This document shows, piece by piece, positions 8,798 to 62,608 of a stretch of 64,000 nucleotides of DNA. The notes under the pieces were generated by a model. The model saw nothing but the letters and a program-made list of their open reading frames with translations. It was not told the origin of the DNA and made no database searches. Location: positions 15,954 through 79,953 of the forward strand of contig RWJK01001809.1 of the NCBI GenBank assembly GCA_004335835.1, in the 5' to 3' direction. Each line of letters begins with the position of its first letter. Positions within the stretch are counted from its first letter, which is position 1. The DNA is from Scenedesmus sp. ARA3. Its lineage: Eukaryota; Chlorophyta; Chlorophyceae; Sphaeropleales; Scenedesmaceae. The translations under genes were made by a program, and so were the position numbers.

Positions 8798-11700
8798 TTA
8801 AGGCTTTGGACTGGGCCAGATCATCGCAGGCGGAGTGCGCTTAGGAGTGCCGCCAGTCTTGCGCGCCTGCAGCTGCAGATTTGAAGTCCTGAGAGAGTTT
8901 GACCGGTCCAGGTCAAACTTCGGGCTGCTGACAGCTGTCACCACAAACGAACAACTGCCTGACTGCTGCCTCCGCGCAGTGAAGACGGCCTGTCCTTTGC
9001 CTGCTGTGTTCTTTGTCTGCGCGATAGGTGACCAAGCCTCAGGGCGCGATCGCCAGGTGCCGCTGACAGTAGCACCCCTGACAGGCTTGCCTGTATCTGA
9101 GGCAATCACCAGCACCTTTGCGGTGCAGGAGCAGGCCTTGGTTGTCTTTGCGCAGCTCTTCCCCATGATGATAGATGTGACGCGCATTGTGGGCTTGGGC
9201 TGGTTGCTTGTCGTTGGGCCTTGGGTGTTTGGCTCGGGGCTGGGGTTTGGGTTGGGCTGGTCAGGATTGGAAAAGGTGTTTGGCAGCTCTGGCGATGGAG
9301 AGGGCTGGACCGGAGCAGGCGGCACAGGTTCAAACACAGCAACACAGGTAGTGATGCTCTCTGGCTCAAGGAAGACGTTCTCGCCAGTTGCAGGGGAGCC
9401 CAGTACGCCGTCAGACAAATCATAGCACTGCCAGCGAGCCAGGATCATGCCGTCCGGAGCATCTTCGCTTGCCAGATTGTATGCGCCAGGCAGCACGGTC
9501 GTGCTGCACTTGCCATTGTCTCCGGGCGTTGCAACCGCCACGCCATCGATACCGATTTGCGATGATGGCTCGCGGATGCAGTTGTCGCGCGCGCTGTTGG
9601 CCCACAGCGCAGGCGAGAACAGCGGCCGGTAGCCGTCTGGAAACTGGCTCAGCAGTGCAAGCTGCGCTGGCGTGTCATCACCAACTGGCTGCTGATCAGG
9701 ACTCGGGCTTGGACTTGTCTCCACATTCTGCTGCTGCTGTTGCTGCTCGGAGCTGCCGTCAGGGCTAAGGCTAGGGCTAGGGCTGGGCTGCTGCTCCTGC
9801 TGCGCCACTCCTGCTGCGGGGAAGCTAGCACTTAGCGCAAAGCCTCCTCTGCTGCCATAGCTACTGTAGCTGGACCCATCTTTGGGGTCTCCGCTGCCTG
9901 CCCCAGAGACAGCAACATAGTAAGTGCCAGCAGCTGGCAGCGCAACTGCTGCTGCTGCAATGCCGAGACCGTTGTCTGTGTCAACGCCTGCAGGGTTGAT
10001 TGGTGCGCCGACAGCGCTGCCAGCTGCATCATACACAACGAGCTGCACATCTAGATCTGAGAATGCCCACTCCTCCCAGGCGCGCTGCACTGCCACAGTG
10101 AACGTTGCAGTGCCAGCATTGGCCTTAAACGACCACACGTTTGGCGTGCCAGGAGTCACGACTAGGCCCGTTGTGTTGATTGTTGCTGTGGCGCCGTTGA
10201 CGGTTGGGGTGGTTGGTGTGGCTGTGGAGATGCTGCTGCCAGCCGGCTGCTTGAGCAGCGGCAGGAAGTTTGTGATGATCTGTACATCATCCTGCGGGTT
10301 GTTCGAGCCGAGGTACGCACCGTTGTCCCAAGTTGAGAGCTGCTTATAGTAGCCTGCAGATGATCAATGTGAACAGCAGCAGCAGAAGTGTCATTATTGG
10401 GGCACAACAGCAGCGACAACAGCAGGATGAGGCGCTCATGCAGTTGAGATGCAAGCAGTCACCTACATACCTGCTGAACTTGCAAGCTCTGGCATGCACT
10501 GCAGTAAATAGCTGCTGCTGTTGCTGAAGCCACACGCAAACTGCAGCTGCAGGGAAGCAGAAGACAGGCAAGCCAGCTGGCGGCCGCAGCAACTCACCAA
10601 CGCCCATGATGCTTGCCCAGTCGCCCTGGCCTGAAAAGTAGGCGCTGTTTGCATCGCCATCATGCATCAAGCCCAGCGTGTGCCCAGCCTCTGCACTCAC
10701 AACAACGCAGCAGCCAGCACACCCTATGAGACAGCAGTCAAGAGGTAGCAGTCTGTCGAGCAGAAGTTATCAGTCAGCTAGGGCTGCGCCTGCACAAGCG
10801 ATGCGAGTATTAGGACCTTGACCACTTGCAGGACGCTGTTTGTGTACACAGCCACTTCAGTGTGTACATGACAGGTAAGCCAGCGCAAGCGCTCCTCACC
10901 ATGTGACACAGGCTCTGCCATGAACTTACATCAAAAAAGTTACTAGGTAAATTCACAGTGCGAACCCAGCATGCAAACTCACCATCTGACACAGCCTCTG
11001 CCATGAACTTGGGGCAGTCACGATGCAAAGTCACACTGAAACATTCACAATGAAATCCACCATACAAGCTCACCATGTGACACAGCCTCTGCCATGAACT
11101 TGGGGCAGTCACGATGCAAAGTCACACTGAAAGATTCACATTGAAAATCCACCATGCAAACTCACCATGTGACACAGCCTCTGCCATGAACTTGGGGTAA
11201 TCAGGGCCCAGGTTTTTAGGGAAGATGAAGGCTGTGGCGTATCTGGGGTCTCCAAAGATGCCCAGGTACGCAATGCCCCCAGCACCACCGCCATACCCTG
11301 TATGTAAGCATGAGGCGATACGGCAATGACGAAAGGCGCGTGCACAACAGCAAAGGTCAGCGGCAGCCTTGGTTTGCAGCATACGGTAGGTTTGAAAGAA
11401 ATGCAAGTGCTGGCTTGCAGTGGTAAGCCAGCTGTTGTTGTGCCGCACGTATGGTTTGGAGCTGCAAATACTCATGCTGGTGGCTGTTGGGCACAGCAGC
11501 GGCCTGCACCAAATTCCAGGGGACTCACATCCGCCGTCTCCGCCAATGCGCACGTGGACAGCATTGACCATTGTTGCTGGCCTGATGGTAGTGATGTCGA
11601 CGTCAAAGATGCTGCAGCAGCAAAGCACAGGGGAACAAGGTTGAACAGCAAGGTTTTGACTAGAAAAATGCAAACAAGGCAATAGCGGCACGAGGCGAAA

Positions 11701-11933
11701 GCAGGCCTAGCACGGTACGCGCTCGACAATGCGTACGGCACCACACAGCGGCTGAGCCCGGTTTTTCAAGGCAGCTATACATTTGTGCACATGCTGCTAA
11801 CGGCATTGCTCATCATAGCACAGCCGCGCCCTGCTCCTGCTTCTGTTGCAGCAGAAGCTACTGCTGCCGTAATCCCTGCAACACTCAGCATCTTCTGTAT
11901 TGCTGCTGCTGCTGCTGCCGCCGCCGCCGCCGC

Positions 11934-11968
<35 letters not shown>

Positions 11969-12968
11969 GGCTTCACTGCAGCTACCCGCATTCCCTCCTC
12001 GGCCGGCGGCTCACCTATAATCCTCGCTCACTGAGCGCCACACCGCAACAATTGCGTTGCGCTCATCCACTGAGAAGTCCCCCGGCTTCCCATCAATATC
12101 AAACGCCGGAATCACGATGTCTGGGTAGGCCTTATTCCAGGCTGTGCCTGTGACAGCGCCGCCGGTGAAATCCAGATACACTTTGCGGCTTGCACTGCTG
12201 CGAGAGCTCAGCTGGAAAGCTTGGCTGGCGAGTGGGTCTGGCTCCGCAGGGGTTAGGTCCTGGCCTCCGATGGTGAGGTTTTTGGGGTCTAGCTTGATGC
12301 CTGGGCACTCGTATACGAGTGCACTGTTGTCAAGGTCGATGCCCTGCAGCAGCAACAGCGTGCGGTGATGCAGTGATGATTCTGGCGGTGAGAGACAGGG
12401 GGTCTGTGTGTTTATTGCGCAAGCTGGCAGTTTGACTGCAGGACAGCTGCTGCCTGCGCTTTGTTGTGCAGTGCTTTGCGCTGCTTCAGCAACCAGCATC
12501 ATAGGCTGTTGCAGCATTTGAAGTATGCCGGTCTACGTAAGCGGCAGTGGCACATCATGCAACGCTTCCAGCCAGCCGTGTTGGTTTGATGGCACCTTGC
12601 ATTGCAGCTGCTGCACTCACCAGTCCTGCGTCTTGGTCCAGATGCTGTGCCAGCAGCTCTACTGCTGCTTGCTCCTGCTGCTGAGCACTGGCAGCAGCGG
12701 CGCCAACCCGCTGCCCCTTCCTTGTCACTGCTGCTGCTGACCGGCCCGCCTCGCCGGGTAGCACGTTAGCTGCTCGCTGCAGGACCTGCTTAAGCACTTG
12801 TGGCCTGTTCTGCTGAAGTTTCTGCAGATATGTCGAAGCACCACCATCTCGTTCGAAGCTGAACTTTCGCCCGGCAAGCTGCGCTTGCGAGTGCTGGTGC
12901 AGGCCGCGCGCTGAGATGGATCCTATGCTTGCTAGAAGTAGTGCCAGCACAATGATGGCACACGCCAT
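8798..12968 (-). CDS. Secreted zinc metalloprotease (metzincin, gametolysin-like) with PPC-like domain
   Basis: Six exons on the minus strand: 12968-12621, 12343-12015, 11611-11529, 11297-11166, 10690-10598, 10353-8798; all phases agree, 846 residues. The N-terminus (MACAIIVLALLLASIGSISA) is a signal peptide, followed by a propeptide-like region and the catalytic domain. The zinc site HEAGHTLGLMHDG (about residues 297-309) is split by an intron after the first base of the Glu codon. WASIMG downstream fits the metzincin Met-turn. After it come a pre-peptidase C-terminal (PPC)-like beta domain (about 400-505), a Ser/Pro and Gln linker, the four-cysteine domain shared with gene 1 (9665-9327), a Pro-rich linker and an Ig-like Cys-containing C-terminus. 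Volvocine relatives degrade cell-wall glycoproteins during mating or hatching; that role here is inferred. The protein should be secreted and active on the extracellular matrix. Confidence 0.85.
10896..11197 (-). repeat. Four tandem copies of the exon-4 end and donor site of the protease gene
   Basis: The true exon-4 end (tcaccatgtgacacagcctc, from 11162) recurs at 11070, 10979 and 10896, spacings 92, 91 and 83. Copies 2 and 3 share gggcagtcacgatgcaaagt downstream. The copies lie inside intron 4 and keep the reverse-strand donor context. Only the 11162 copy reads on in frame with the preceding exon. Confidence 0.9.
11904..11970. repeat. CTG/CCG triplet repeat in protease intron 2
   Basis: About 22 triplets, CTG with a central CCG/CCGCCG interruption. 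On the coding (minus) strand this is a CAG run shortly downstream of the exon-2 donor. Confidence 0.9.
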
Positions 12969-13846
12969 CGGTCAGCAGGTGCTGCTGAAACGTCAGCTAC
13001 TTGCTGCTTGCGTCTGTTGTATGAGCGTCACACGCACAGATGCTAGTCAATACAGCACCTCAAAGCATCAAGCATAAGAGTTTATGGTTGTTTTGTGGTG
13101 TGCGTTCAATATGTTGCTTGCTTGCTTGGTGTTTATCCTCTGCGTGCCTTCAACTCGTGGTGTCAGATGAATTTCATGTTTCATACACAGCACTGTCAAA
13201 CACCTATAGCAATGCAGTGCCCGTGTGGCCTGCTGGACGTGAGGGGTCGCCCGACTCCGACTTGTTACAGCCGTACTGGTAACCAGGCCGGATTCTTATT
13301 TGTAAGCTTCTGCTGGACATCCGTGCAATAGTAAACCATGCAATCACTCTTGTGCATTGTTTGATGGTCAGCGGCTGCTTGAAACCACCATGTTTGGTTC
13401 GAGGACTGCGACTTCACAGCCATATTCATGATGCAACGACAGCACATGAGCAACAAAGGAAGCACGGCAAAAACGCTGCGATCGAAGAAAGTGCTAACTT
13501 TCAAGTACTGACGTCATCGGGCACTAAGGGCACTGCCACTGCTACCAGACCTCGAGCAGCTGGTGCTGCTCTTCAGCCTGCTGCACACACCACTCAGCTG
13601 AATGGCATGATAGGCTAATCAAGCACAGAATTTCAACAGCCACGAGACCTACAACTCAATAGCTGTCTTCAATGCCGCCTGGCTGCTGCTGCTGTTTTGC
13701 CATCTGCATCGCAACACGCAGCAGAACACAACACAGCAGCCACACGTGACGTCGTGAGAGCAGCACTGGGCAGGGCAGAAGCTGATTTGAAGCACTTGCC
13801 AGAACAGAGGTGCCTGCCAAGCTGCCAAGAATGTTAAGAACGATTA
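12969..13846. other. Promoter of the protease and 3' UTR of the upstream gene
   Basis: This lies between two same-strand genes. A reverse-strand TGTAA at 13269-13265 is a plausible poly(A) signal for the 13847-16419 gene, 578 bases past its stop. No clear TATA box or additional coding frame was seen. Confidence 0.45.
13265..13269 (-). terminator. Candidate TGTAA poly(A) signal
   Basis: Reverse-strand TGTAA downstream of the stop at 13847. TGTAA is the usual chlorophyte polyadenylation signal; the assignment rests on position only. Confidence 0.35.
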
Positions 13847-16419: not shown

Positions 16420-17308
16420 AGGTGCAAGTACGGTAGTAAGGTGTATCACTGTTTGTAGCTTAGTTCTGTACAATGTGCTATGTTGCGTTCTGGTGCGAGG
16501 ATTACAGCACCTTCGGCAGTAGCAGGAGCAGTAGCGGTGCCAAGCAATCACAGCAGAAGCACTATCGTTAGTTGCACACACTATCCACCTTCGTTTATCT
16601 GGTTCGGCCTTCAAGATCGCTTGAAGAGCTCCGAACCGCTAGCAGTGGCTGACAAGGACTTCGGGTGTCACAAGCCCTACTAGGCTGGGTTGCCTTTTTA
16701 GAAGGCAAACATATTTGTATGACATAAGCTTCAGTCAAGGTGGGATAGCCGTGCGGTTGTATTTCTGCCTGTGCAGTGTCAACTGGCCCCACTGGATGTA
16801 CTTCTAAGTGGGAAGTGGGAAGTCATGCTTGCCAGCATGCAACGCAGGCGCCTGCTAGCCACTCAAAATACCAGACAAGTACTTACGCGTTACAAATCGC
16901 ATAAATGATGTCTTTACAGTTCCATGATTGTGCCACATGGCTTGTGGTGTTGCTGGGTACTGAGCTTCCTCAAGCCTTGACGGGGCTCATGAAGTATTGT
17001 GTGCGCTGAACTGCGCTGCATCAAATCCAGTGTAAAACTCATATCTGCAGTAATTGTCACGCAAAAATTGATTATACTGCGCCCATTGCGATATTTGTTA
17101 CTTTGCGCTTGACGAGTTCCTTCAGAGATCTACGGAGCCACAGCTGGCTGTCCATCGCAAAGCTACATTCGATACATAGAAATTACTCTGAGAGCTTCTG
17201 CAAGACACGATCTGACCGACTTGCAGCGTGCTGGTGACGAACGAGAGTTGCTGCTGGTCAATTGCACCGTGAAAGAACTGAACGTTCAATCTACATAAAC
17301 ACCAAGCA
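16420..17308. other. Divergent promoter region
   Basis: Head-to-head space of 889 bases between the putative plastid protein (-) and CHLI2 (+). No TATA box or repeat stood out. Both flanking products are probably plastid proteins, so shared regulation is possible but not shown. Confidence 0.5.
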
Positions 17309-22117
<4,809 letters not shown>

Positions 22118-22432
22118 TTGATGCTGCAGCTGGCATGACGGCTTGAGCTTAGGGGACGGCTTTGGGGGTCTTTAGGAAGTAGGCGTTCTCCATAGCAGTG
22201 AAATTCTGGCAACGGGTAACATATCAGACATCCTTTGCTCTTGAGATGCCAGCATAAAGGGTTAATCCTGAGTTGCGTGCTGATGGCGCGCATGTTATGT
22301 AGGCGAATGCGCGATGACGCCGGTCTGCAAATTGGAAACATTGGACGTGACGTCACGCACGGACTGGGCGCCTCCCTCAGGGAAAGACTGCAGCCAGGAC
22401 ATGCAAGCAGCGATGTAGCAGCGTTCACAACA

Positions 22433-22437
22433 TGTAA
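22433..22437 (+). terminator. Candidate TGTAA poly(A) signal of CHLI2
   Basis: TGTAA 316 bases after the stop codon, a normal distance for a chlorophyte 3' UTR. Confidence 0.5.
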
Positions 22438-23329: not shown

Positions 23330-23880
23330 CTACCTGCTGAGGCCCAGTGCGTTGTCCAGCACCCGCTGCAGCGCTGCAGTTCGTCTGTCGGCTGGCTGCT
23401 GCCGAGACTGTCGACTGCTGTAATGAAGGGTGACTGCTGCTGGCTGCAGTGGCGCTGCTACCTGCTCAGGCCCAGAGCGTCGTCCAGCACCTGCCGCAGC
23501 GCCGCCAGCGCATCTGGCTGCCTGCTGCCAAGAGGGCTGGCTGCAGTGGCGCTGCTGCCCGCTGGCTTCACTGCTGTGCTGCAGCTTGACGCTGCTACCC
23601 ACTGCAGCCCAGCCCATCGCGCAACACCTGCCGCAGCGCTGCAGTGCATCTGTCAGCTGCCTGCAGCTGAGACTGTCGACTGCTGGCTGCACTGGTACCG
23701 CAGCTTGGCACTGCTACCTCCTCAAGCCAGCATGTCGCCCAGCACCTGTGGCAGCGCTGCAGTATGTCTGTCAGCTGCCTGCTTTTGCCGGCTGACTGCT
23801 GCCGCGAGGGCCGGCTGCTGCTACCTGCTCAGGCCCAGCGCGTCGTCCAGCACCTGCCGAAGCGCTGCCAGCGATGAGGG
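23330..23880 (-). repeat. Five tandem copies of the LCAT-family gene stop-codon region
   Basis: On the minus strand the last codons and stop (LRQVLDDALGLSR-stop) are at 23821. Related copies have their cta at 23714, 23595, 23458 and 23330, spacings 107, 119, 137 and 128. Copies keep agcacctgccgcagcgc-like cores but drift apart. The used copy is the one joined to the conserved His exon; the others form the 3' UTR. Confidence 0.9.
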
Positions 23881-25017
23881 GTGCCACACCACGTTGCCGT
23901 GGTTGACTGCCGCGGGGATCTCGTAGACATGGCTGGGGCTGGTCAGCCTGCGGCATACAATGAGCATGCCAAACACGTTAAGTTGGGTTGCATTATGTTA
24001 CATTACATACACCACATGCAACACTTGCGACATGAGGCGTTGTACAAGGCACTGCAGTAGCCTGGTTGTGCAACACGAGGCAGCTGTTAACAACACATAC
24101 AACACAACATGCATGTTCAGGTGGCACTGAGTTGCTGGTGTCAGTTGCAGGGCAGTGGTGCTGGTCAGCCTGCGGCGCACAGTGAACATGCCCAACACAC
24201 ACATGTCGCGAGGCAGTTGTACAATGCATTGCAGTAGCCTGGTTGTGGAGGACAATGCAGCTGTTTGAGGATTGTGTGCAATACTGGTGCAGGCTGCTTG
24301 CAGAGCTGCATCAACTCCAGGTTGACCACGCCGTTACCATCAAGCAGTTCAGGTTGCTTACAACAAGTCGCTCTTGACAACATGTTCATTCAGCCACTCA
24401 CTGCTTGCAGAGCTGCATGGACTCCAGGTTCACTACGCCATCAGCATCAAGCACTTCACAGGCTACGTGCCACAAGCAGGCAGACAGACAGCCACGCTGC
24501 CACTCATTTCAGCAAATTATATGGTGTACAGCATGGGCTAATCAGGCCACTCACTGCTTGCAGAGCTGCATACTCTCCAGGTTGACCACGCCATCGCCCT
24601 GCCCCACCAGTGCAGGCACGGCAGTGCCCGGGGCAGCGGGGCGGTTAGCCACGATGCTGCGGTAGCTCCACGACTCAACAGTGGGGATGCCAGTGCCTGC
24701 GCACAGCAGCAGCAGCAGCAGCAGCAGACATACAAAGGGAGCTGAGGCACAATGAATATGTCCTGGAAAGCAAGCATGCTGTGGAAGGAATGTGCGGCGT
24801 AGCTGCACTGCTGTACATACAGTCACGGGCAGTGCTTGAGCTAGGGGGTGACTATCTGGCACTCTTGCGGAGTGTCCGAGCGGCGTGTTGCTTGTGCTGC
24901 TGCTGCTGCTGCTAGAACAGGAGGCCTTACCGTAGATGCAGTAGGTCTTGACTCCCGGCACTGGCCCCAGTGCGACCAGCTTGCTGAGGTCGTGGGCATT
25001 CTCATACAGCTCGGCCT

Positions 25018-25059
<42 letters not shown>

Positions 25060-25973: not shown

Positions 25974-26012
<39 letters not shown>

Positions 26013-26197
26013 ACTCACAGCCGCAACTGCTGCTTTGCCTGCTACTGTCACCGTGAATGCAGCCGCCATGCTGCAGCCCTCCCACAAACAGCTTGCAGCA
26101 GGCTGCTGCTTCTGGCTGGCACTACCTGCTTGCCGAGCACACACTGCCGCATGCAAGCTGCGTGCCTTATGCTGCTGCTGCTGCTGATTCTGCCGCA

Positions 26198-26250
<53 letters not shown>

Positions 26251-26262
26251 ATACATGCAAAC

Positions 26263-26303
<41 letters not shown>

Positions 26304-26872: not shown

Positions 26873-26930
<58 letters not shown>

Positions 26931-26980
26931 NNNNNNNNNNNNNNNNNNNNNNNNNNNNNNNNNNNNNNNNNNNNNNNNNN

Positions 26981-27036
<56 letters not shown>

Positions 27037-28887: not shown

Positions 28888-33716
<4,829 letters not shown>

Positions 33717-34259: not shown

Positions 34260-34304
34260 ACACCATATTCCATTAGCCGGCTCTGCATATTTGACGACAA
34301 GTGG

Positions 34305-37400: not shown

Positions 37401-37510
37401 AGACTATTCTGTTTTGTGGCACAGGTGGATGCAACTGCTGCAGCTCATGCTGCTGTGCACGCAAGCCTAGCATGCGCCGCATGTTGCTGTGCTCAGCCGT
37501 TCTGCACCTG

Positions 37511-37555
<45 letters not shown>

Positions 37556-40500: not shown

Positions 40501-41834
40501 GCAGGCATTTGCGGATACGATCCTCGACGACCCGATGATCCTGCCTGTCGGGCCGGATACAAACTTCCCGCTCTTTTTCTTTGCGGCGCCGCGCAGCAAC
40601 CTGTCTGCGCCCTCGTACAACCGCCTGGCGGAGGCGCCGTACGTGCCCGTGACCACGCAGCTGCAGCTGGTGAATTCGAGCGGGCGCGTGCTGCCGGTGC
40701 GGGACTCCACCGGACAGGGGCTGCAGCGTGTGGGTGATGCGCAGCAAGTGCTGGGCAAGGCAAGCCTGAACTTCAAGGTGAGCTCAAATGCATGGCAGCA
40801 GTGGCTTTCGGTCAGCCCATGTCACATGGCTGACACTTGTTTCTTACCCTGTTCTTCCGCAACTGCTGCTGCCATGCACAGGCCGGCTTCACCTTCCGCA
40901 GCGCGGTATCGGCTAACGTCATACTACTGAATTTTTCTGCTCTGCTGCCCCTGCTGCTGCCATGCACTGCACATTCTCCTGCAGGCCGGCTTCACTTGCG
41001 CAGCACCTCGTCAATGCATGTCATAGCACTCACAACATCTTCTCCCTACTGCCCCTGCTGCCGCCATGCATTACGCATTCTCCTGCAGGCCGGCTTCACC
41101 TTCCGCAGCGCTGCATCAGCCAGGCCTGACGCCTTTGTCATTGCGCCCATGGGCAAGGACTTCCCGCAGGGCAACACAGTGGACCTGGGAGACAAGTACC
41201 GCCTGGTGATCAAGGTGGGCTGGCTGCATGCAGTTGCTGACTAGTCAGAGCTTGCTGAAGCGTTGATCTCCTCGAGGCTTTGATCCTTTGTCTTGGTGTT
41301 TCGTGGACCCCACGAGCGTTGTTTGGCTCTTTTTTGGGAGAACCTGTGGCCTTAGTTTGGTAGGTTGGTAGTTTGGTCATTGGCGTGCCTCTAGCATGGC
41401 AGCCAGCCCTTGTGACACCAGCAGCTGAGCACGCTTCCTTGCCTGCTGGGATAGAACAGCCGGCCTTGAAATGCTACATGCAAATGACTGTAGCACTACT
41501 CAAAAGCCCTTGGAGGCAAGTACCGGCTGGTCATCAAGGTGGGCTGCTTGGCTTGGCAGCAGCTCCTTCGCAACACTTGCTTCCTTGCTGACAAACTGCC
41601 AAGCGGTTTGATAATACGCACAACATACAGCTGCTAACAATGTCCATCATACTGCTTGTGCTGCTGCTTCTGCTGCTGCTGCACCTGCAGGGTGTGGGTG
41701 TGACAGAGTCCAACCTGGTGACGCCCACGCTGGCGTATGCGCTGGGGGACCCTGTGCCGCTGGCCAACTTCAAGAACAAGACGCTGCTGTCCGTGATCGC
41801 TGCGTACACCAAGAAGAAGGATGCCGGCGTGTAG
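34425..41834 (+). CDS. Large secreted Pro/Thr-rich (hydroxyproline-rich) glycoprotein with unknown C-terminal domain
   Basis: Ten exons: 34425-34488, 34763-35938, 36210-37229, 37558-37740, 38110-38211, 38666-39244, 39537-39656, 39891-40777, 41089-41214, 41691-41834; 1466 residues, phases agree. Exon 1 encodes a signal peptide (CPTILIILLIAASG). Residues of about 40-1170 are low-complexity: EPAP/PAPEP, then TTPPA and GVTPPAADVTTPP repeats, then SPAPVDSPAPAESPAP repeats, a short Asn run (NNVNNNVNN) and Gly/Ser/Thr stretches. These fit O-glycosylated wall rods of the HRGP class. The last roughly 240 residues are globular (GWKVDVTP..., FPLFFFAAPRSNLSAPSYNR, AGFTFRS, ...AYTKKKDAGV) and I do not recognise the fold. 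Exons 2-7 all start and end in phase 1. Expected in the extracellular matrix; a role in wall structure is inferred. Confidence 0.85.
36480..36700 (+). repeat. 45-bp coding minisatellite (GVTPPAADVTT)
   Basis: Near-identical units caggagtgacaccacctgct + gctgatgtgac recur about four times in exon 3, adding 15-residue blocks without breaking the frame. Confidence 0.92.
37510..37555 (+). repeat. CTG repeat at the glycoprotein exon-4 acceptor
   Basis: About 15 CTG units end in CAG at the acceptor (exon starts 37558). Confidence 0.95.
38520..38725 (+). repeat. Duplicated start of glycoprotein exon 6
   Basis: ttgcagtggctccagagc.aagcccc.cagcccccacc..tgaagcttc occurs with exon part starting at 38531 and 38666 (spacing 135). 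The second runs into the long exon. At the second, AG acceptors 6 bases apart (exon start 38660 or 38666) both keep the frame. Confidence 0.92.
38900..39240 (+). repeat. SPAP coding repeat
   Basis: Units of 48-60 bases encoding (PAPVDSPAPAESPAPEQS) recur in exon 6; the 60-base unit at about 38928-38987 is repeated exactly at 38973 onward in overlapping register. Confidence 0.85.
40878..41125 (+). repeat. Three copies of glycoprotein exon-9 start
   Basis: caggccggcttcacctt begins exon-like copies at 40882, 40985 and 41089 (spacings 103 and 104), each preceded by gccatgca and acceptor-like sequence. Only the third is open through the whole exon. A copy of the exon-9 end (taccggctggtcatcaaggt) ends at 41538. 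Confidence 0.92.
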
Positions 41835-48595: not shown

Positions 48596-49305
48596 TTATA
48601 CCAGCAGCACTGCATTGATGCAGCCGTCGTTCTCCGGGTTGTTTGTCACCTGTAGCAGCACAGAGCACGACGTGTCAGGACGGTAGCAACAGAGGTGCTG
48701 AGTGCACAGCAGCATCCACTGCCGCAATGCAAGTGTGTCAACAAACGTTCAACGACCATCATCAGCTTTCTATCCCTGCACAGCGCACACATATGCAACT
48801 GCAAGCACATGTCTGAGCTCTGCAAGTAACATCCAAAACACACCTACAACGCCCGCACTCATCGATTGGCAGATGTGCTGGGCAATCCACGCCATCCCAG
48901 CCCCGCATCACCCTCCACATACCATCATCCTACAGCACCGCCACCAGTGCTCCTGAGCCCCACACCCACCTGCGCGTACTTGCCCCACACCACCTTGCCT
49001 CCGAGTGTCACCAGCCGCCAAACACGTCACAACACAGCAAACAACACATTACCAAGGAAATCATTGTGCCACGCGCTTCGGCCTCGCACCCACCTGCGCG
49101 TACTTGCCCCACACCACCTTGCCTCCGGGCGTCACCAGCCCCAGCTCGCTCACATTGACCTCGATGATTGTTCCCTTGGTGATCACGCCTAGGCTGCTGT
49201 ACATGGCGCCGTTGGGGTTCTTCTTCACGCCCAGCACGTTCAGGCAGAAGGTGGCCTTCAGCTCTGGGTGCGTCACGTGCGCCTTGTTCATGCGCAGGCC
49301 TGCGG

Positions 49306-49338
<33 letters not shown>

Positions 49339-49442
49339 AGGTTTCAAGGGTTCAGCATACACCAAGTCACAAGCAAAGAGGCAGAAGGTGGCCTTCAGCT
49401 CTGGGTGCGTCACGTGCGCCTTGTTCATGCGCAGGCCTGCGG

Positions 49443-49475
<33 letters not shown>

Positions 49476-50897
49476 AGGTTTCAAGGGTTCAGCATACACC
49501 AAGTCACAAGCAAAGAGGCAGAAGGTGGCATTGAGCTCAGGCTGCGTCACGTGCGCCTTGTTCATGCGCAGGCCTGCGGTGGCAGCAGCAGCAGCAGCAG
49601 CAGCAGCAAATGTTTCAAGGGTTCACCATACACCAAGTCACAAGCAAAGAGGCAGAAGGTGGCCTTCAGCTCAGGCTGCGTCAAGTGCGCCTTGTTCATG
49701 CGCAGGCCTGCGGCAGTGGCGGCAAAGGTTCCAAGGGGTCAGCGGGCGGGCAAGTCACAAGCAAAGAGGCAGAAGGTGGCGGCTCACCCGTGGGCCGCAT
49801 AAAGGACTCGTACACAGCACGTCAGCGGCAAGTTGGCCAAGTTCAAAAAACCAAATTCAAAAAGCCAAGAGGAAAAGTGTCGGCTCACCGGTGGGCCGGA
49901 TGAAGCGCTCGTACTTCGAGACACAGCACATCAGCAGCATGGAGTTATCAAAATAATCACCATCAGCAACAATCACCATCAGCAAACTAAACTCAGCAGC
50001 CGGGTGAACCACCGATGGACCTGATGAAGCGCTCGAACTTCACACACAGCACGTCAGCAGCAAGGTTTATTTCTAAAGTTCGGACTTGAAACCTGCCAAA
50101 CCCAATAAAAAAGCGGCCGCTCACCGGTGGGCCTGATGAAGCGCTCGTACTTCACACACAGCACGTCAGCAGCAAGATGTATAAATTTTCGAGCTTGAAA
50201 CCTGCCGAATCCAATAAACAAGCGGCCGCTCACCGGTGGGCCTGATGAAGCGCTCGTACTTGGGCGGCTTGCGCGTGAAGCCTGGGCCCACAAAGGTGAC
50301 CTTGGTGATCATGCGCTTCCAGCTCTTCTTCATGCGCTTGCCGCTCTTGAGCACCTTGAACATCTCGTCCTCAGCCACGGGCCGCACCTGAGCGGCAGCA
50401 GCAGATAACACAGTAGATAAACCACATGGGGTGATGTCATGTGGTGTCTGGGCAGGGAACATGGCAACGCCAGAGTCACATTTAGGTTGCTGGACATAGC
50501 CGTGCGCGTGCGTGTAGGTTGCTGTGTTGGTGACCTAGAAAACACTGCAGCGCATGGACAGGAGCATCAACTCCCCAAGTCGCACAGCCAGCGAAGCCGC
50601 ATTCCGCTGCCTGGCCATCCCACAGCTGCAACGCTGCCATTAGCAGCGACGCCTTTCTTGCATGCTGCCACTTTGCAGCACTGCTGCTGCTGCTGCCACC
50701 GCGCTGCTGCCGCACCTTGGGCAGCGGCACCTCCCACTTGCCGGCCTTCTCCTTGCGCTTCTGCTTGATGGTGTTGCTCAGCACCTTGGCGCGGTCGACC
50801 TGCATTTGTTGCAGCAACAGCACGGGGTAGCAGTGAGCTGACGATATGCCACATGCAGCTCTGCAGCACAAACAGTTATGCATTTGCGGGGAATTTC

Positions 50898-50935
<38 letters not shown>

Positions 50936-52310
50936 GGAATTGCTACACAAATGCCGCAAGCATGTGAGCGGCTATCTGTGCTCGATTTCTGTGCTCAACT
51001 TCTCAGTGACATGGGATCCCACACCATCCCGCCAAACAACGTCGCGCCAGCGCAGCACCCACCTGGTCGCGCTCCAGCAGGTATGCTGGCACCGCATTCT
51101 GCGGCGCGCCGTCGTCCGCCTTGTGCTTCTGCTCCTTCTCCTCGTGCATGGCGATGGTCTTCTTCAGCAGCGCCTTCTCCTGGTGGCGCTTCTTGGCAAA
51201 CAGCTTGCCCTTGAGGCCCAGCGCCTTGCGCGCGTACTCGCTGCGCTTGTGCACCTGCAGACCAACAAAGCAACAGCAGCGACGTCGCGCAACAGGAGGG
51301 ACGTGAGTTGAATGAGGCATGAGGGGAGCACGCGTACTCGCTGCGCTTGTGCACCTGCGGGGAGTGGCGCAGCAAAAGCAGGGGTGATGTGAGCAGCACA
51401 ACATGATGCATCAGGCCCAGCGCCTTGCGCGCATACTGGCTGCGCTTGTGCACCTGCAGGGAGTGACGCAGCAACAGCAGGGATGATGTGAGTAGCACAA
51501 CATGATGCATCAGGCCCAGCACCTTGCGCGCGTACTCGCTGCGCTTGTGCACCTGCGGGGAGTGGCGCAGCGTGACAGTGGGAGTGACAAGCAAAATGGT
51601 GAGGATGTGAGAGGGGCAGGAGGCATGGGGAGAGCGCGTACTTGCGGCGCTTATGCGCTTGCGGGGAACGATAGCACGTCAGGTCAGCTCCACATCAGCT
51701 CCACATCAGCATTGAATTAGCGATGCGGTGTGCGACATCAACAGTGCGGTGTGCAGGTGCTCTGCGCTTGATATCTGTGCGCAGCAAGTCTGCTGCTGAG
51801 TTGAAAGCAGCTGAACAGCAGGAAGGGCGCATGCTGCATCAGCCGCGGGCTCCTGCTGCTACTGCTGCTGCTGCTGCTCCCCGTCATGTGGTGGTGGTCT
51901 ACATAAAACCACCTTGGCATCTGGACCTAGACATTCATGGTATCCAGCTGCTGTTGATGCATGCATGGTATCCAGCTGCTGTTGAAGCTGCAAGCTGAGC
52001 ATACTGCACATGTGTTAGCAACTGCTGTGGAGAGGCAGTGGGCACGGCTGCTGCACAGCGAGGGAAGCCCTGTTACGGATGCATGAAGCAGATAGCTTCC
52101 TCCTTGCTGGCTGGCACTGCTGCTGCCACTGCTGTTGCTGCTGCTGCCACTGTGTGCGAATGCCGTCCCTCCTGCTACGCTAGGAGCACCAGTGTGCTGC
52201 CATAGTGCTAAACGCACCTCGCGGGCCTCCTTCTTCCGCTTCTTCTCTTCATAGTTGAGCTGTCTGCCATGACGCTTCCTGTGCAGCTCTATATGCTCGT
52301 TCTGAGGCAT
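48596..52310 (-). CDS. NSA2: Ribosome biogenesis protein NSA2 (60S assembly)
   Basis: Six exons: 52310-52218, 51254-51063, 50799-50716, 50387-50234, 49299-49094, 48649-48596; 260 residues, the usual length of the family. It starts [20 protein letters not shown] with the family's very basic N-terminus ([11 protein letters not shown]), then [50 protein letters not shown] and a C-terminal eS8-like beta domain ([20 protein letters not shown] ... [20 protein letters not shown]). NSA2 is a nucleolar GTP-particle-associated factor needed for 27S pre-rRNA processing and pre-60S maturation. Three of its exon borders (exon 2 start, exon 4 end, exon 5 start) are repeated four or five times in the introns, the heaviest such load in the window. 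It is head-to-head with the acyl-CoA synthetase gene. Confidence 0.96.
49240..49735 (-). repeat. Four tandem copies of NSA2 exon-5 start with CTG acceptor tract
   Basis: gcgcaggcctgcggtggcag marks copies at 49292 (used), 49429, 49566 and 49700, spacings 137, 137 and 134. Each includes exon sequence, the acceptor, and (copies 1-3) a CAG run of 8-10 units, then aaaggtttcaagggttcagc. Units are over 90% alike by eye, pointing to recent amplification. Confidence 0.95.
49780..50260 (-). repeat. Five tandem copies of NSA2 exon-4 end with donor
   Basis: ctcaccggtgggcctgatga is used at 50229 and recurs at 50120, about 50006, 49884 and 49783, spacings 109, 114, 122 and 101. Divergence grows with distance from the real exon. 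Confidence 0.93.
50903..50935. repeat. CTG repeat in NSA2 intron 3-side sequence
   Basis: Eleven CTG units in the intron between exons 2 and 3 (CAG on the coding strand), in the donor-side half. Confidence 0.9.
51225..51670 (-). repeat. Five tandem copies of NSA2 exon-2 start
   Basis: gcgcgtactcgctgcgcttg + tgcacctgc marks copies with gcacctgc at 51251 (used), 51351, 51450 and 51549, and a decayed gcgcttgc at about 51655. The spacing is a regular 99-106. All lie in intron 1. Confidence 0.95.
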
Positions 52311-53324
52311 GCTGCCGTCTGCACCTGCTCGCTAACGCGAGCAAGAAACTATGCAATAGCTCAGGAAAAGAGCAGCCAGGGGCGACCGAGGGGGCTGAAG
52401 CAAGAGGAGCGACACAAGGACAGCTTCTGGTTCGCTGGCAGGTTACAAACGCTGTTTGTTTACCTATAACAACAGTATTTGTCCTGTGCCAGCGAGCTGT
52501 CACGCAAGTTCGTCTGTGTAGCTGAGTCTAGCAGTCGCAGTCTGGATGGAGGCAGCGAGACAACCGACAGCAGCTGCAAGACTAAGCACAAAAGGACCGG
52601 GAAGTGGCTTGCCTAACGCCTTAGGCTGGCGCCCAGGGCGCAACACCACGTCACTGACAGATGCCAGCTAGGGTTGAGGGCCAGGTCACCCACTGCCTGC
52701 CAGGGGGAAGGGGCTGTGGCTGGCAGACGATGACATGAGGGCAGACATTCGACATGTACAAATTAGCTGTCAGCAAGTTGAGATATTGTCTGCTGTTGCT
52801 GCTGTGGCAAGGGGTGCACAGAGCCCAGCTGAAGCCCGGACTCCAGGCCCTGCTGGCCCTGCAGCGCTCCAGCTGGACCATCTGTGAAGACAAACTTGAG
52901 CTGTGGCACCATTTCTAGCCAGGAGCTGTTAAAGTTTGCTTTATGTACGTTGTTGTTGCAGCTTGACCTGTCAGACGCCTTGCTGGGGTTTGTCCGCTTG
53001 CCAAAAGGGCACTGCTGAGCCGTGCAGGGCGTCAGCTGAGGGGACAGTTACTGACTCGTCAGCCACTGGAGGTGATCCTAAACCCGTTTGAAACGCTGAA
53101 GCTTTGCTGCAAGCGTTACAATACAAGATGATCAAGACCGTGCCGACGTTGCTGCCCTCACCCCATGCTCAACCTCTCACTCCTGGTCACTCTGGCTGAC
53201 ATGTCAGCAACTGACAGTGTGCCTCGTCTGCAACATCACCTCAGCGCCGCAGCACTTACCGCGATAGGCTGGCCTGCTTCAAGGCTGTTTTTGGATCGAT
53301 AATGTGCTAGCGAGCACTAGCAGG
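52311..53324. other. Divergent promoter of NSA2 and the acyl-CoA synthetase
   Basis: About 1.0 kb, no gene. No clear TATA box; housekeeping-type bidirectional promoter likely. Confidence 0.5.
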
Positions 53325-54517
53325 ATGTCTGCAAGTCACAGGCTGTCGGTGCTGCAGGGTCAGCTAGCACCCACAAATGCCGCAGAGGCGCAACAGTTGT
53401 GCCTGTCTCCCACAGCAGGCAGGCAAGGCGATCAGGATGTGGCAGACCGCATGGAGGAGCTGATGCAGCAAACGGAGCCCTATGCTGTCCCGTTACCAGA
53501 AAAGCTGCAGCCAGACGGGCCATGGAACGTGTACAGGTACGTATAGTGACGATTTCATCGTATTTGGTAGCCTGATGATCGGCATCTGACAGCAGGCCTG
53601 TGTCTTCAGGGCTGCCCACTCAACTAGGAAGCTGCTGTGCAACTTTGATGCACCAGACCAGGATGTGTTCACCCTCTATGACAATTGGGAGACTGCGGTG
53701 GCACGCTTCCCGCATGTAAGCACGCACAGCCACGTTTTTGGCAGCCTCCACAGCTTGGCAGCCTCCACAGCTCAGCATGATTTTCAGCAGACCATCACTG
53801 CTTGTGCTGCTGCCGACAGCATGCAGCGCTGCTGCGGTGCTGCACTTGCATGGGGCTTGCAGTCGCATGGTGTAGCGGTGCAGGGCTGCAGCTGATACAG
53901 CAAGTAGCAGTAGCCGCAACAGCACCTTTATTGCTAGGATGCTGCCTGGTTTGTAGCAGCAGCAAGAGCAGCAGGCAGAGCTGATGTGCAGAAATGCGCC
54001 ATGCATGCACATGGTTGCAGTCACAGCGGCAGAACTTGCGTCGATGCATCACACTCAGCAGAGCAACAGATGGGCAGCAACTACATATGTTCTGAGTTTT
54101 CTGAGGTTTGATTCGCGGGCTGCTTTGTGCAGGTGCCTGCGCTGGGCTGGCGCAAGCGTGATGCTAACGGCAACCTAGGCGCCTACACCTGGCTCACATA
54201 CTCACAGGTACAGCTGCTCCAGCAATGCATCGATGCTGAAGGTTGGCACAGCAGCAGCAGAGCAGCAGCAGATACAAAGCAACAGCTGAACCCACCAGGT
54301 CATACATGGGCTGCGTTGTGCATCATTCTGATTGTGGAAAATGCAGTCGAGCGTCACGGATACCTGGCAGGGTATCGCTGCAGCTGGTACATGCCCTAGA
54401 GCTATTGTCTGCCTCAACACCGCAAGCAGCGACTGCATTATGCAGTCGCTGCTATATCACTTATTCCCGCGTTATGCAGTGCAGCTTCATCACTGAACCC
54501 TGCCGCACACCCGCATC

Positions 54518-54559
<42 letters not shown>

Positions 54560-57500
54560 CTGGCGACATCCGCACCTCGCTGGGCTCTGGCCTGCTGCAG
54601 CTGGGCATCCCGCCCAAGTCCATGCTGGGCCTCTACAGCGTCAACTGCAAGGAGTGGGTGCTGCTGGACGCAGCAGCACACGCCTACAGCATGACAAGCG
54701 TGCCGCTGTATGACACGTTGGGGCCTGATGCAGTGGAGTACATCTGTAACCATGCTGAGCTGGCGGCGGTGGGCTGCAGCGCGGCGGTGCTGCCGACGCT
54801 GCTGAGCTGCATTGCGCGCTGCCCAAGTCTGAAGCTGCTGGTGGGTGCGGTGTTTTTAAATGTGTTGGTAGCGCTGTGGGTGCGTGAATGCAAATAAGAA
54901 CATTGGTTGTGTGTCTTTGCAGCAACAGAGACAGGAGTGTGATCTGTTGCTGGTAGGGCTCAGGTGCAGGTTAGGGTTGAGGTTGAGGTGAAAACATGGC
55001 TGCAGCGTCATTGGGCATGGCGCGTGTGCCCTGCTCTGCCAGTCACGCTGCTGGTGTGCAGTCACGCATGCAAAACGGTCTAGCACTGTCCATCATGCTG
55101 GCTCTAGCAGGCCCCCTTGCTTATGCAACAGTAGCCTCCGGACATTCCACACGCCCTGTCTCTCTTGTCTCTCACATGTGCATGTGTGCACCTGCAGGTG
55201 GTGTGGGGTGCTGGTACAGCGCAGCTGCCGGAGGTGCCTGCTGGCTCCTCCTGCAGGCTTGTCACATTGGACCAAGTGGAGTCACTGGGGCGTCGCCACC
55301 CACGCGCACACGTGCCGCCTCGCCCGAGTGACATCGCCACCATTTGCTACACCAGCGGCACCACCGGCACGCCAAAGGGTGCGCACATGTTGTGGAGTTG
55401 TGTTTGGCTGCGCTTCCAGCAGCATTAGTGCTGCATCCGTTGCTTCATCCAGTGGTGTAGCTTCTGCAGTCTTGCGTGGGTGCGAAGGCCGGACTGCAGC
55501 TGCACAGCAACCGGCAGGCACAGCAGTTCCTGCATCAGCAGCTGCAGGTTCAGCAACAATCACGAAACACAGCACAGACTCAACACAGCGCTTCATGCTT
55601 GCCCTGCGTCACCCGTGCAGGTTTCTGCTTGTGTCCTTCTCCCTGAGGCGCCGCGCTCACGCACGCCAACCTGATCGCTGATGCTGCCGGCCTGCGAGCT
55701 GCTGGCAGGCTGTCAACTAGTCATTATGATCCCCATGCATGCTCCGCGTCGTGCATAAATCCATGACTGTACGTGCTTACTTGACTTCGGCTCTCTTCCC
55801 TACTGCAGGCGCCGTGCTCACGCACGCCAACCTGATCGCTGACGCTGCCGGCACCTGCGAGCTGCTGGACGACTGGCAGCCGGGCGACAGGCACATCAGC
55901 TACCTGCCGCTGGCGCACATCTACGAGCGCAACAACATGACGGTGGCGGTGCACCTGGGCGGCAGCGTGGGCTTCTACAGCGGCAATGTCACAGAGCTGC
56001 TGGACGACGTGCTGGTGAGGCAGCGCTGTAGCGCGGCATAATGTTTATACTTATGTATGTTTTGGTTTGAAAGAGCTAGCCAGGGATCTCATGGTGCGAC
56101 GTGCTGAGGAGGCAGCGTGGTTTGAGAGGATAGTTACAAGTGGATCCTGGCACTCTTTCAAATGCTGGGTGGACATCCGCATGGTGGTTGTGTTCTTGCT
56201 TAGAAGCATAATAGCCCAGCAGTACATTCAAGAGGCCAGATTTTTGCATGTTGCCGGGCTGCTGGACGACGTGCCGGTGAGGCACTGTGGTTTTCTATCC
56301 GTGTTTCAGACGTGTATGAGCATGTAAGTTGCATTGAATCCGGTCACTGAGCTCAAACCCGAGGCGTGTGCTGTCGTAGGTTGGTGTATGCCTGGGACTG
56401 CGGCTGTCTGCCTGTCCTGTGCCTCCATGTGAGCTGTTATGCCAACGCTGGCGCTGCAGCCGCACGTATATGTGAGCGCAACTGCAGATAATGAATTCAA
56501 CTGCTTGCCTGTCATGTGCTGCTGTGCTGCCTGTTGTTGAGTGCAGGCGCTGCAGCCGCAGCTGTTTGTGAGCGTGCCACGACTGTGGAACCGCATCTAC
56601 GATCGCGTCATGGCCACCATGCGCGAGGCCAACCCGGTGAAGCGGCGCCTGTTTGAGCGCGCCTTTGCCTACAAGCGCGCAGCGCTGGAGGCCGGTGTGT
56701 GCTGATGAAGCCATTTGCAGCAGTTGCCAGCACACAGGATTTCATCATGCCGGCTTCAGTGGCAGCCATTGTGATGATCATGTCTTCTGCATCCGACGTT
56801 CGCGTACAGCGATGAAAGCTCCGTCTCCCATGCACATGTTGCTAGTGTTGGGCACAGCAGATGCAGTCGCAGCTGCACACCAACTCCTGCATCAGCCCTC
56901 ATGTACATCAGCTGCTACTCCTGTGCCTTGAATTGTGCACTGCTGCGAATCATGCTGCGCATGGCCGTGTGCTTTTTGAATGTCAGGCGACATGAGCGGC
57001 GGGCGCTGGGGCCCCTTCTGGGACCGGCTGGTGTTCAGCAAGGTGCGGGAGCGCCTGGGCGGGCGCGTCAAGTACATGACCACAGGTGAGCCCGATGCAC
57101 AACAAAGTACAATATTTCTTAGATATACCAGCTGGGGTTGGAGCAGCTGTACAGCTTCACCTAGCACCTGTAATTGCGCAGTCGAGGCAGCAGCTTCCAG
57201 CCGATTGCCTGCCAGCTATGTGCCCGCTAGCATGTGCATGACTGCTGTTCCACCAGTGCCTGCGCCTGCCTGATCTCTAACCACCACAATCATATCTTAC
57301 CCGTGCTCCTGCAGGCGCCAGCCCCATCAGCGCAGAGGTGATGATGTTCCTGCGCGTGTGCTTTGGCTGCCACGTGCTGGAGGGCTACGGCATGACAGAG
57401 ACATCCTGCACCATCACTATCACACGCATGGATGACCCCACAATCGGCCACGTGGGCGCGCCGCTGTCCTGCTGCGAGGTCAAGCTTGTGGACATCCCTG

Positions 57501-59269
57501 AGATGCACTACATGACCACGGACCAGCCGCACCCGCGGTGCGTTACGTTTGACCGTCCAGTCAAACTGGTCAAACTGGTCAAATCAGTCAAACTTGGTGT
57601 TTGATGGTTGCGTGCTGACATGGTGCAGCCTCGATTTTTTGTGTGGGTGTTTGCTCTGCCGTTTGCAGCTGGCTTTAGCAGAGTATGTTCAGCTGCTGTG
57701 ACGTTGCTGTTCACAAACGCAAGTCGGCAAGACTGCTGTTGTGTCTCACTGCTGCTGCAGGGGCGAGGTGTGTGTGCGCGGGCCCACAGTGTTCCAGGGC
57801 TACTACAAGGCCCCGGAGCAGACAGCAGAGGTGATGGACGCTGACGGCTGGTTCCACACAGGCGATGTGGGCGCGTGGCTGCCCGGGGGCCGGCTGCGCA
57901 TCATCGACAGGTGCGCTGTGTGTGAGATAGTTGAGGAATTGTGTGGCTTGCAGTGAGTTGTGTAGCTTGCAGCTGCAGAGGCCCGTGTCGTTGTTGACAG
58001 CAAAATCATGCATGCCCTTGCTCTACTGGCGGCCGGCGGCGCATCATCGACAGGTGCGTTGTGTGTGCGCTGGCTGAGGATTCCAGTGGCTTGCAGCTAT
58101 GTAGCTTGCTGCTGCAGATGCACGTGGATGGTGGAGTAATCACAACACACGGCTGCTCCTGGTTGTTCAGGCACTGACTGTGCTGTGCGGGCGTCTGTTG
58201 CTGCTGCACCTGCCACTCGCTTGCAGGAAGAAGAACATCTTCAAGCTGGCGCAGGGCGAGTACATCGCGCCGGAGAAGATAGAGAATGTGTACACCAGGT
58301 GCGCAGCTCACCCGCTGCTCCTTGTCGCAAAATACAATGTTTCAAAGTTTCCGTGAAACATCCGAAGGTTTGCATTGCGGGGGTGTGCAGGTGAAACGAG
58401 CATGCTGCCAGGTTTGCCGGGTTGATTGCTTTATTGGCCTCATGCTATGAGATGCAGAGCGCATCCTCTTGTGAATTGGCACATCTGCTACTGGGCACGC
58501 CTGTATGAGAACATGTTATTGCGTGCTTTTGGTGGCTGCCATGCCCTCACAGTGGCTACATTTAGGCCTAATCAATCTGGGCTTCTGACGAGATGTGGCT
58601 TTGCTGCCATGCGTCCTGCAAACTCTGCTGCAGGAGCCCGCTGGTGCTGCAGGCGTTTGTGTATGGTGACAGCCTGAAGGCGCAGCTGGTGGCAGTGGTG
58701 GTGCCAGACCCTGAGACGCTGCTGCCATGGGCCAAGGAGCGCAACCTGCCGCAGGTGTGAGCCCGTGCCATGCAGACTGCTGTACTGTTGTGCTGCAACA
58801 CAGGTTTAGGACTGTTTTGAACTGCTGCAGGCCTGCATCAGTGCTGGCGCGGGCAGCTGGGCAGTGGAATGAACCAACACAAGTGCTACTCTAGGCTAGC
58901 TGCATGCTGGTGCATTCTCTCAAGGCTGTTTGCTGTGGTGTGCTGCACAACTGCTTGCAGGACATGCCGTCGCTGTGCCGCGAGCGCGCCGTCATCCAGG
59001 CGGTCATGCACAGCATGCAGCAGGAGGGCAAGGCAGCACAGCTGCGCGGCTTTGAGCACGTGGCAGCAGTCAGCCTCATCCCCGAGCCATTCACAGTGGA
59101 AAACGACATGCTGACACCCACCTTCAAGCTGAAGCGGAATGTGGCGCGGGAGCAGTACCAGGGCTTGATTGACGGCATGTATGACAGCCTGGCTGGGGCT
59201 GGGGACGGGGATAGGGAGGTGGCGGTTGGGAGTGGCGGCGCAGGCAGCATGGCTGGGCGGCGGCCGTGA
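53325..59269 (+). CDS. LACS: Long-chain acyl-CoA synthetase, probably peroxisomal (LACS6/7-like)
   Basis: Thirteen exons: 53325-53536, 53610-53715, 54133-54207, 54559-54840, 55198-55378, 55809-56014, 56547-56694, 56987-57085, 57315-57537, 57761-57910, 58227-58298, 58634-58754, 58961-59269; 727 residues, all phases agree. The enzyme activates fatty acids with ATP and CoA. Marks: P-loop [11 protein letters not shown] at the end of exon 5, [28 protein letters not shown], and [20 protein letters not shown]. The first in-frame ATG (53325) gives [14 protein letters not shown], in which RL-x5-QL fits the peroxisomal PTS2 pattern, as in plant LACS6 and LACS7. That suggests a role in beta-oxidation; targeting is inferred. 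Partial tandem copies of exon 6 (both ends) and the exon 10 end lie in introns. Confidence 0.94.
54522..54556 (+). repeat. CTG repeat at the LACS exon-4 acceptor
   Basis: About 11 CTG units end at gccag, immediately before exon 4 (54559). Confidence 0.95.
55640..55865 (+). repeat. Duplicated start of LACS exon 6
   Basis: aggcgccgcgctcacgcacg + ccaacctgatcgctgatgctgccgg starts an exon-like copy at 55648; the used exon starts at 55809 (spacing 161). The first copy lacks several bases and is frameshifted after GAG CTG CTG. Confidence 0.92.
55995..56285 (+). repeat. Duplicated end of LACS exon 6
   Basis: gagctgctggacgacgtgct with gtgaggca is used ending at 56014; a copy, gctgctggacgacgtgccg + gtgaggca, ends at 56276. 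A copy of the exon-7 start region (gcgctgcagccgca) also precedes exon 7 at about 56450. Confidence 0.85.
57556..57598 (+). repeat. Short gtcaaactg tandem repeat
   Basis: Four to five units of (g)tcaaactg in LACS intron 9. Confidence 0.85.
57885..58060 (+). repeat. Duplicated end of LACS exon 10
   Basis: gccggctgcgcatcatcgacag with gtgcg is used ending at 57910, and a copy (gccggcggcgcatcatcgac...) ends at 58053, spacing 143. Confidence 0.88.

Positions 59270-62576: not shown

Positions 62577-62608
<32 letters not shown>

Follow-up and report, generated by a model that had tools for sequence, protein, structure and literature searches.

Genes and junction arrays

The window, as we call the whole stretch of 64,000 nucleotides analysed here, is part of an 87.3-Mb assembly of 1567 contigs from Scenedesmus sp. 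ARA3. A protease, CHLI2, LCAT-family, RIO2, proline-rich, NSA2 and LACS gene were recognized in it, and in or beside these seven genes short segments spanning a splice junction recur in the adjoining intron. A first-pass annotation of the sequence had described about 20 such arrays in at least seven unrelated genes, which was borne out, as 22 junction arrays can be listed. Copies were found by scan at 35 borders of the window; 21 of these are listed, together with the array at 18415, and the other 14 were set aside, being Pro/Ser-rich coding-type repeats (6), borders of false exons that are themselves copies (6) or weak cases (2).

10895..11203, minus strand: protease donor array; exon 11166-11297, copies 11053-11111, 10951-11020 and 10895-10927, unit of about 91 bp
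18106..18480, plus strand: CHLI2 acceptor array; exon from 18415, 136-bp unit, 2.7 copies
18532..18852, plus strand: CHLI2 donor array; junction 18570, copies 18659-18714 and 18790-18852
19098..19258, plus strand: CHLI2 donor array; junction 19137, copy 19212-19258
19649..20006, plus strand: CHLI2 donor array; junction 19706, copies 19794-19858 and 19971-20006, CAG tracts between
20805..20989, plus strand: CHLI2 donor array; junction 20857, copy 20952-20989
21083..21509, plus strand: CHLI2 acceptor array; exon from 21422, 153-bp unit, 2.8 copies, entire unit duplicated
23454..23868, minus strand: donor array of predicted exon 23825-23947, within or downstream of the LCAT-family gene; copies 23591-23642 and 23454-23510
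24294..24595, minus strand: LCAT-family donor array; junction 24554, copies 24393-24442 and 24294-24332
30688..30876, plus strand: RIO2 donor array; junction 30754, copy 30803-30876
31068..31344, plus strand: RIO2 donor array; junction 31099, copy 31306-31344
31491..31916, plus strand: RIO2 acceptor array; exon from 31867, copies 31739-31793 and 31491-31549
32040..32342, plus strand: RIO2 donor array; junction 32084, copies 32149-32208 and 32290-32342
40879..41120, plus strand: proline-rich gene acceptor array; predicted exon from 41089, copies 40942-40995 and 40879-40913
41184..41546, plus strand: proline-rich gene donor array; predicted junction 41214, copy 41508-41546
48957..49140, minus strand: NSA2 donor array; junction 49093, copy 48957-49016
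49242..49713, minus strand: NSA2 acceptor array; exon 49094-49299, 137-bp unit, 3.5 copies, 96% match
49778..50261, minus strand: NSA2 donor array; junction 50233, unit of about 109 bp, copies 50079-50152, 50010-50040, 49875-49916 and 49778-49813
51214..51667, minus strand: NSA2 acceptor array; exon 51063-51254, 99-bp unit
55646..55852, plus strand: LACS acceptor array; exon from 55809, copy 55646-55691
55986..56284, plus strand: LACS donor array; junction 56014, in agreement with the Tetradesmus obliquus protein, copy 56248-56284
57885..58126, plus strand: LACS donor array; junction 57910, copy 58028-58096

For gene prediction, codon and splice models were trained with 90 exons matched by Pfam, including 10 with a stop; untrained scoring of open reading frames and codons failed to separate genes. 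The trained splice consensus is sharp (donor CAG/GTRNG, acceptor YGCAG/G), and the gene finder recovers 83 of the 90 Pfam-matched exons, which are its own training set. Window models yield proteins matching the NSA2, ChlI, RIO2, LCAT and LACS families, those of RIO2 and LCAT being checked by Pfam only. The ChlI protein and 8osf can be aligned over 334 aa without a gap, and NSA2 aligns gap-free to 8fkr over 243 aa once four predicted exons, which correspond to junction copies, are removed beforehand. Joined predicted exons of LACS are 97% identical to a T. obliquus protein and 90% to that of Scenedesmus sp. NREL 46B-D3, which marks the alga as Scenedesmaceae-like. Comparison to the T. obliquus protein shows that the LACS model misplaces two acceptors, by 15 and 42 bases, and lacks the N-terminal 42 aa, errors that touch none of the listed array borders. 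Residues 283-300 of the T. obliquus protein also match the LACS copy 55646-55691 (83%).

Two copies of the NSA2 array 51214..51667 were called exons by the gene finder, and the homologue 8fkr is devoid of such an insert. Junction copies were predicted as in-frame extra exons of NSA2 at 51355-51552 and 49371-49707. As seen in this prediction, junction copies may enter the annotations of such genomes as spurious exons.

Repeats in the window and in the loci

Pfam searches of the same genome with Helicase_C, Pkinase and AAA provided 90 loci, which were merged into 74 stretches totalling 252 kb (hereafter the loci); searches with kinesin and Cpn60 provided coordinates only. When the window, masked for simple repeats, was compared with itself, 86 repeat pairs lay at most 2 kb apart, of which 85 are direct and 1 inverted. 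A second count gave 83 direct vs. 1 inverted pair in the window and 211 vs. 3 in the loci. The phenomenon is real and is found again elsewhere in the genome, direct repeats being present in 44 of these 74 other stretches.

Spacing was measured in the loci by an ungapped scan of every offset from 10 to 420 bp with a score cut-off of 26, our own scan being preferred because self-BLAST missed offsets of 39 and 57 bp that Tandem Repeats Finder reports as periods. It detected 300 repeats scoring at least 26, compared to 0 in locally shuffled sequence. Offsets of 100-140 bp are the commonest and are echoed near twice and thrice this value, and only 12 of the 300 are below 80 bp. The spacing of 85-160 bp initially proposed holds. 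Copy-to-copy steps number 57 at 100-119 bp and 39 at 120-139 bp, and none is shorter than 60 bp in this count, which admitted offsets of at least 60 bp alone. Repeats cover 13.8% of exonic, 13.8% of intronic and 4.2% of other bases.

Concentration at splice junctions

When both strands were modelled in the loci and the window, an intron-side copy was present at 94 of 399 predicted donors and 86 of 434 predicted acceptors. An outer copy thus accompanies 180 of 833 splice borders, whereas it is found at 3 of the 51 stops predicted and at none of the 16 starts (Fisher p = 2.3e-4), bearing in mind that these counts take predictions as given (in the window, 14 of the 35 copy-bearing borders were not kept as junction arrays) and that start and stop borders are the least reliable of the predictions. 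The suggestion that stop codons are also duplicated was therefore not upheld, and no array is listed at the predicted stop of NSA2 or LACS. The contrast prompts the question of what makes splice junctions different from other coding borders in this respect.

The metagene profile of repeats drops from 0.28 just inside the exon to 0.06 at +20 to +50 at donors; at acceptors the exonic value is 0.21, falling to about 0.07 between -50 and -20. In the loci, 100 of 121 arrays cross a junction, compared to 50.0±4.5 under random re-placement sparing coding sequence, and in the window 25 of 28, compared to 7.3±2.3. This test took arrays that are junction-crossing or wholly non-coding and excluded coding, exon-internal and mixed ones (35 in the loci, 3 in the window). 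Copies thus sit at junctions more than random duplication would give, and the border excess announced by the first-pass annotation stands against a fair null. The exon-centre comparison that it proposed favours borders weakly: among 71 Pfam-matched exons considered without gene models, an outside copy of the first, middle and last 50 bases occurs in 9, 6 and 17, respectively. Neighbouring exon matches in two further families point weakly in the same direction, as 11 of 141 pairs overlap by at least 12 profile positions, 3 of them with a shared end or start.

Tandem arrays with a period of at least 60 bp number 28 in the loci, and 17 of them have a predicted junction inside. Among the other 11, 10 were inspected by eye; 1 is coding and 9 appear junction-like, two of the latter lying at a locus edge, where the splice motif was the only basis for the call.

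Intron length

Repeats are held by 94 of 361 introns and lie at a border in 87 of these 94; inner-only repeats are found in 7, compared to 36.5 expected. Introns with repeats have a median length of 504.5 bp, vs. 249 bp for the 267 introns without, and of 256.5 bp after removal of the arrays. Array-bearing introns are thus longer by about the length of their array and about double the rest. Donor arrays are present in 60 of them, acceptor arrays in 50 and both in 23 (8.3 expected by chance), and 13 of 276 exons bear arrays on both sides (6.6 expected). Split by identity, inner repeats represent 9 of 60 in the bin of at least 0.90, compared to 32.3 expected, and do not differ from expectation below 0.90 (17 of 41 and 15 of 33, compared to 21.9 and 16.5), bins given no weight because the split counts copy-to-copy pairs as inner.

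The length difference also bears on a possible assembly artefact, which might be suspected from two gaps of 50 N in the window, one of them between CAG tracts. Such an origin is highly improbable, since collapsed introns have the length of array-free introns, copies differ mutually by roughly 5-35%, and direct repeats are present in 44 of the 74 stretches, on many contigs.

The determinants of intron length are an open question, and here one countable process accompanies a doubling in about a quarter of the sampled introns. As it leaves graded fragments and a characteristic unit length, intron growth becomes testable intron by intron. Among the five green algae tabulated in PMC5966456, T. obliquus has the longest mean intron (462 bp), which would fit the array-lengthened introns observed here.

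Structure of the copies

In the set of 158 copies (89 donor and 69 acceptor), the exon part is about 40-55 bp long; extents above 60 bp are seen at 19 of 103 junctions. Identity on the exon side reaches 0.90 for donors and 0.89 for acceptors, whereas in the ten bases past the splice consensus it is 0.48 and 0.44, respectively (about 0.46). For copies with an exon-side identity of at least 95%, the intron-side value is 0.57 for donors (38 copies) and 0.43 for acceptors (32 copies). Such a contrast implies that plain tandem duplication followed by decay is insufficient.

Two kinds of arrays can be distinguished. True head-to-tail duplications make up the first, with 21 arrays in which homology extends into the flank and one spacing departs from the next by a median of 2 bp. 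In the second kind, spacings are not inherited, with a median difference of 31 bp in the 12 arrays with unrelated flanks; of the 33 copies with at least 95% identity over the 40-bp exon part, 13 have an intron flank no more similar than chance. Homology of these class-2 copies, defined by weak similarity outward from +9 (donors) or -17 (acceptors), stops at +6 or near -6, and the flank scores of acceptor copies are bimodal. The initial proposal that introns grow outward by repeated local tandem duplication is thus sustained by the length excess, the border excess and the 21 true tandem arrays, but plain duplication predicts neither the unrelated flanks and uninherited spacings of the remainder nor, when simulated, the junction excess. 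The accompanying claim that divergence rises with distance was not confirmed, the nearer copy being the more similar in 16 of 37 arrays.

The second kind of array might suggest that a templated insertion puts the exon end and splice consensus, without flank, about 110-140 bp into the intron, the full tandem arrays being a secondary amplification between inserted copies. Candidate processes are polymerase-theta-like end joining and repair templated by nascent pre-mRNA. We consider this reading unlikely. Chance-level flanks beside nearly identical exon parts, bimodal acceptor scores, homology that ends at +6 or near -6, and 12 arrays spaced as if their copies were independently placed would all be expected from it, and the deficit at starts and stops would suit a splicing-linked process. 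On the contrary, some of the "unrelated" flanks appear weakly similar by eye when gaps are allowed (window junction 19137, C1206 and C693), and acceptor copies with unrelated flanks exhibit a pyrimidine content of 0.70 (38 copies), vs. 0.48 at random intronic CAGs, which is unexpected for insertion at random sites. Furthermore, the sample shows no mobile family: an all-against-all comparison of 361 introns, with simple repeats masked and introns of at most 60 unmasked bases dropped, gave 11 cross-locus matches at E < 1e-4 and hence no set of near-identical elements across genes. A mobile-element origin was rejected for the sample on this comparison.

As initially reported, copies usually keep the splice dinucleotide: of the 89 donor copies, 80 have GT or GC, and of the 69 acceptor copies, 61 have AG. 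GT or GC persists in 28 of the 30 donor copies with an exon identity below 0.8, and splice-site scores of the copies are near those of real sites. This could indicate selected decoys, retained to regulate splicing, for example by promoting intron retention. Against this rather improbable explanation, the dinucleotides would be retained about as often as neutral divergence of about 6% would give, a function would be required in about a quarter of introns, and the far edges of copies are without a complementary splice site above control. Indeed, AG is found at the far edge of 29 of 85 donor copies (control 0.33) and GT at that of 14 of 65 acceptor copies (control 0.24). The idea that copies are mini-exons with both splice sites was rejected for the same lack of excess.

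Relations among the copies are informative too. When intronic copies are compared in pairs (61 pairs, selected for similarity to the exon), identity is 0.87 over the 40 bp derived from the exon vs. 0.61 in the intron beside it, which argues that constraint on the source alone is not the cause; copies are more alike than their flanks, as in concerted evolution by gene conversion. Copy-to-copy differences concentrate at third codon positions, also at G/C sites (93/510 vs. 51/617, p = 7e-7), as expected if the differences derive from the coding exon at different times. Changes unique to a single copy are mildly third-biased, with 56, 38 and 26 at positions 3, 1 and 2, respectively.

Simulation and proposed origin

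We simulated random duplications of about 120 bp in which coding-altering events are removed, neutral copies decay, exons are constrained and detection is similar to ours; being built on random sequence and guessed rates, the simulation tests the kind of process and not its numbers. Without re-copying of the exon into the copies, the junction share is 0.37-0.49 and intron-side identity 0.63-0.70; with re-copying, they are 0.75-0.88 and 0.33-0.39. Observed junction shares are 0.83 in the loci and 0.89 in the window, and the observed intron-side identity of about 0.46 lies between the two simulated models. An anchoring of the exon part at about 45 bp, considered earlier, was dropped when random duplication yielded nearly identical non-uniform extents.

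The simulation without re-copying represents survivorship alone, in which duplications of about 120 bp occur anywhere, selection clears the exonic ones and one-sided decay keeps copies with an exon part visible. It accounts for the direct orientation, the intact exons and part of the border focus, and its exonic extents (medians of 37-50 bp) are near those observed. This reading is nevertheless already disfavoured, and we hold it improbable, as it predicts too small a junction share and too high an intron-side identity. It also fits poorly with the scarcity of inner-only introns (7 of 94) and with the tandem arrays of period at least 60 bp, 26 of the 28 being assigned to a junction by model or visual inspection, 1 being coding and 1 uninspected; in addition, pairs of intronic copies show the same contrast between exon part and flank.

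Our preferred explanation, held tentatively and at slightly less than even confidence, is that duplications of about 120 bp arise across junctions, that their exon-derived halves are re-copied from the exon and that their intron halves decay. Segments spanning a donor or acceptor would duplicate head to tail, as is the case in the 21 flank-related arrays; the extra copy would fall in the intron, the used junction would stay beside the intact exon, and each event would add about one unit to the intron, in agreement with the length difference. The exon-derived part of the copy, together with the splice consensus, would then be repeatedly renewed from the exon, either through gene conversion or through new short-homology exchanges, while the intron-derived part would decay freely. 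As the exon would act as a preserved master, copies with an exon part would stay recognizable for long, and duplications wholly within introns or between genes would vanish. Copies with a long exon part would probably be lost because they disturb splicing.

Several findings count against re-copying. Intron-side identity is intermediate between the two simulated models, and is 0.57 (donors) and 0.43 (acceptors) in the subset most alike on the exon side. Start and stop borders bear few copies (3 of 67), though a preserved master is present there too. Exonic extents above 60 bp make up 39-48% in the re-copying simulation and are rarer in the data, at the 19 of 103 junctions given above. The third-position bias of single-copy changes is mild, pyrimidine tracts occur beside unrelated flanks, and re-copying leaves the unit length of about 120 bp unaccounted for. 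A splicing-linked copying, in which nascent RNA or spliceosome-bound exon ends would serve to write exon ends and consensus into the adjacent intron at a set distance of about 110-140 bp, seems to us improbable, though the unit length, the near absence of copies at starts and stops and the copies with unrelated flanks leave space for it. If it were true, each intron would be enlarged from its own junctions, with neither random duplication nor mobile elements as the source.

Comparison with known systems

Full-text literature searches returned, in titles and openings of abstracts, no account of junction-derived arrays; their coverage left subscription journals mostly outside. Introns are known to be gained when AGGT-containing exon segments undergo tandem genomic duplication, a demonstrated route whose cases in the relevant passages of PMC3443670 produce new introns. 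In both situations a local head-to-tail duplication overlaps coding sequence and is tolerated as splicing hides the extra copy. However, existing introns are here lengthened by copies of their own junction, in about a quarter of the sampled introns and with a preferred unit of 100-140 bp, and the far edges (AG 29/85, GT 14/65, both at control) give no sign of a duplicate supplying both ends of a new intron.

Introners and introner-like elements have a genome-wide effect on introns in algae, and the arrays resemble them in this respect. Unlike introners, the copies come from the own junction of each intron, and the genes of the sample have no element in common.

Intronic minisatellites under concerted evolution consist of head-to-tail units of constant length, whose copies are more alike than their flanks. 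Here, the unit is constant in part of the arrays only (21 yes, 12 no), arrays are centred on splice junctions with the used exon end as one member, and many copies lose their similarity past the splice consensus.

Repair of staggered breaks in plants creates short tandem duplications, local and direct, of tens to 150 bp. The arrays are likewise local direct duplications, but we know of no preference of the plant duplications for splice junctions, and offsets below 80 bp are rare here (12/300).

Other repeats and minor observations

GC replaces GT at the junction in 9 of the 89 donor copies of the loci and window. Long CAG/CTG trinucleotide tracts are numerous in the window, among others at 18928-19031, 26170-26303, 26874-27035 and 62572-62942, and simple repeats are somewhat commoner in introns with repeats (51% vs. 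39%, uncorrected for length). Both gaps of the window are of exactly 50 N, one at 26931-26980, between a (GCA)n and a (CAG)n tract, and the other at 60302-60351. Positions 1-686 harbor a Pro/Ser-rich coding-type repeat with periods of 57 and 219 bp, unlike the junction arrays. Finally, a 19-bp unit is repeated about 10 times at 29475-29666, inside a predicted RIO2 intron, and represents one of several short-period intronic arrays.
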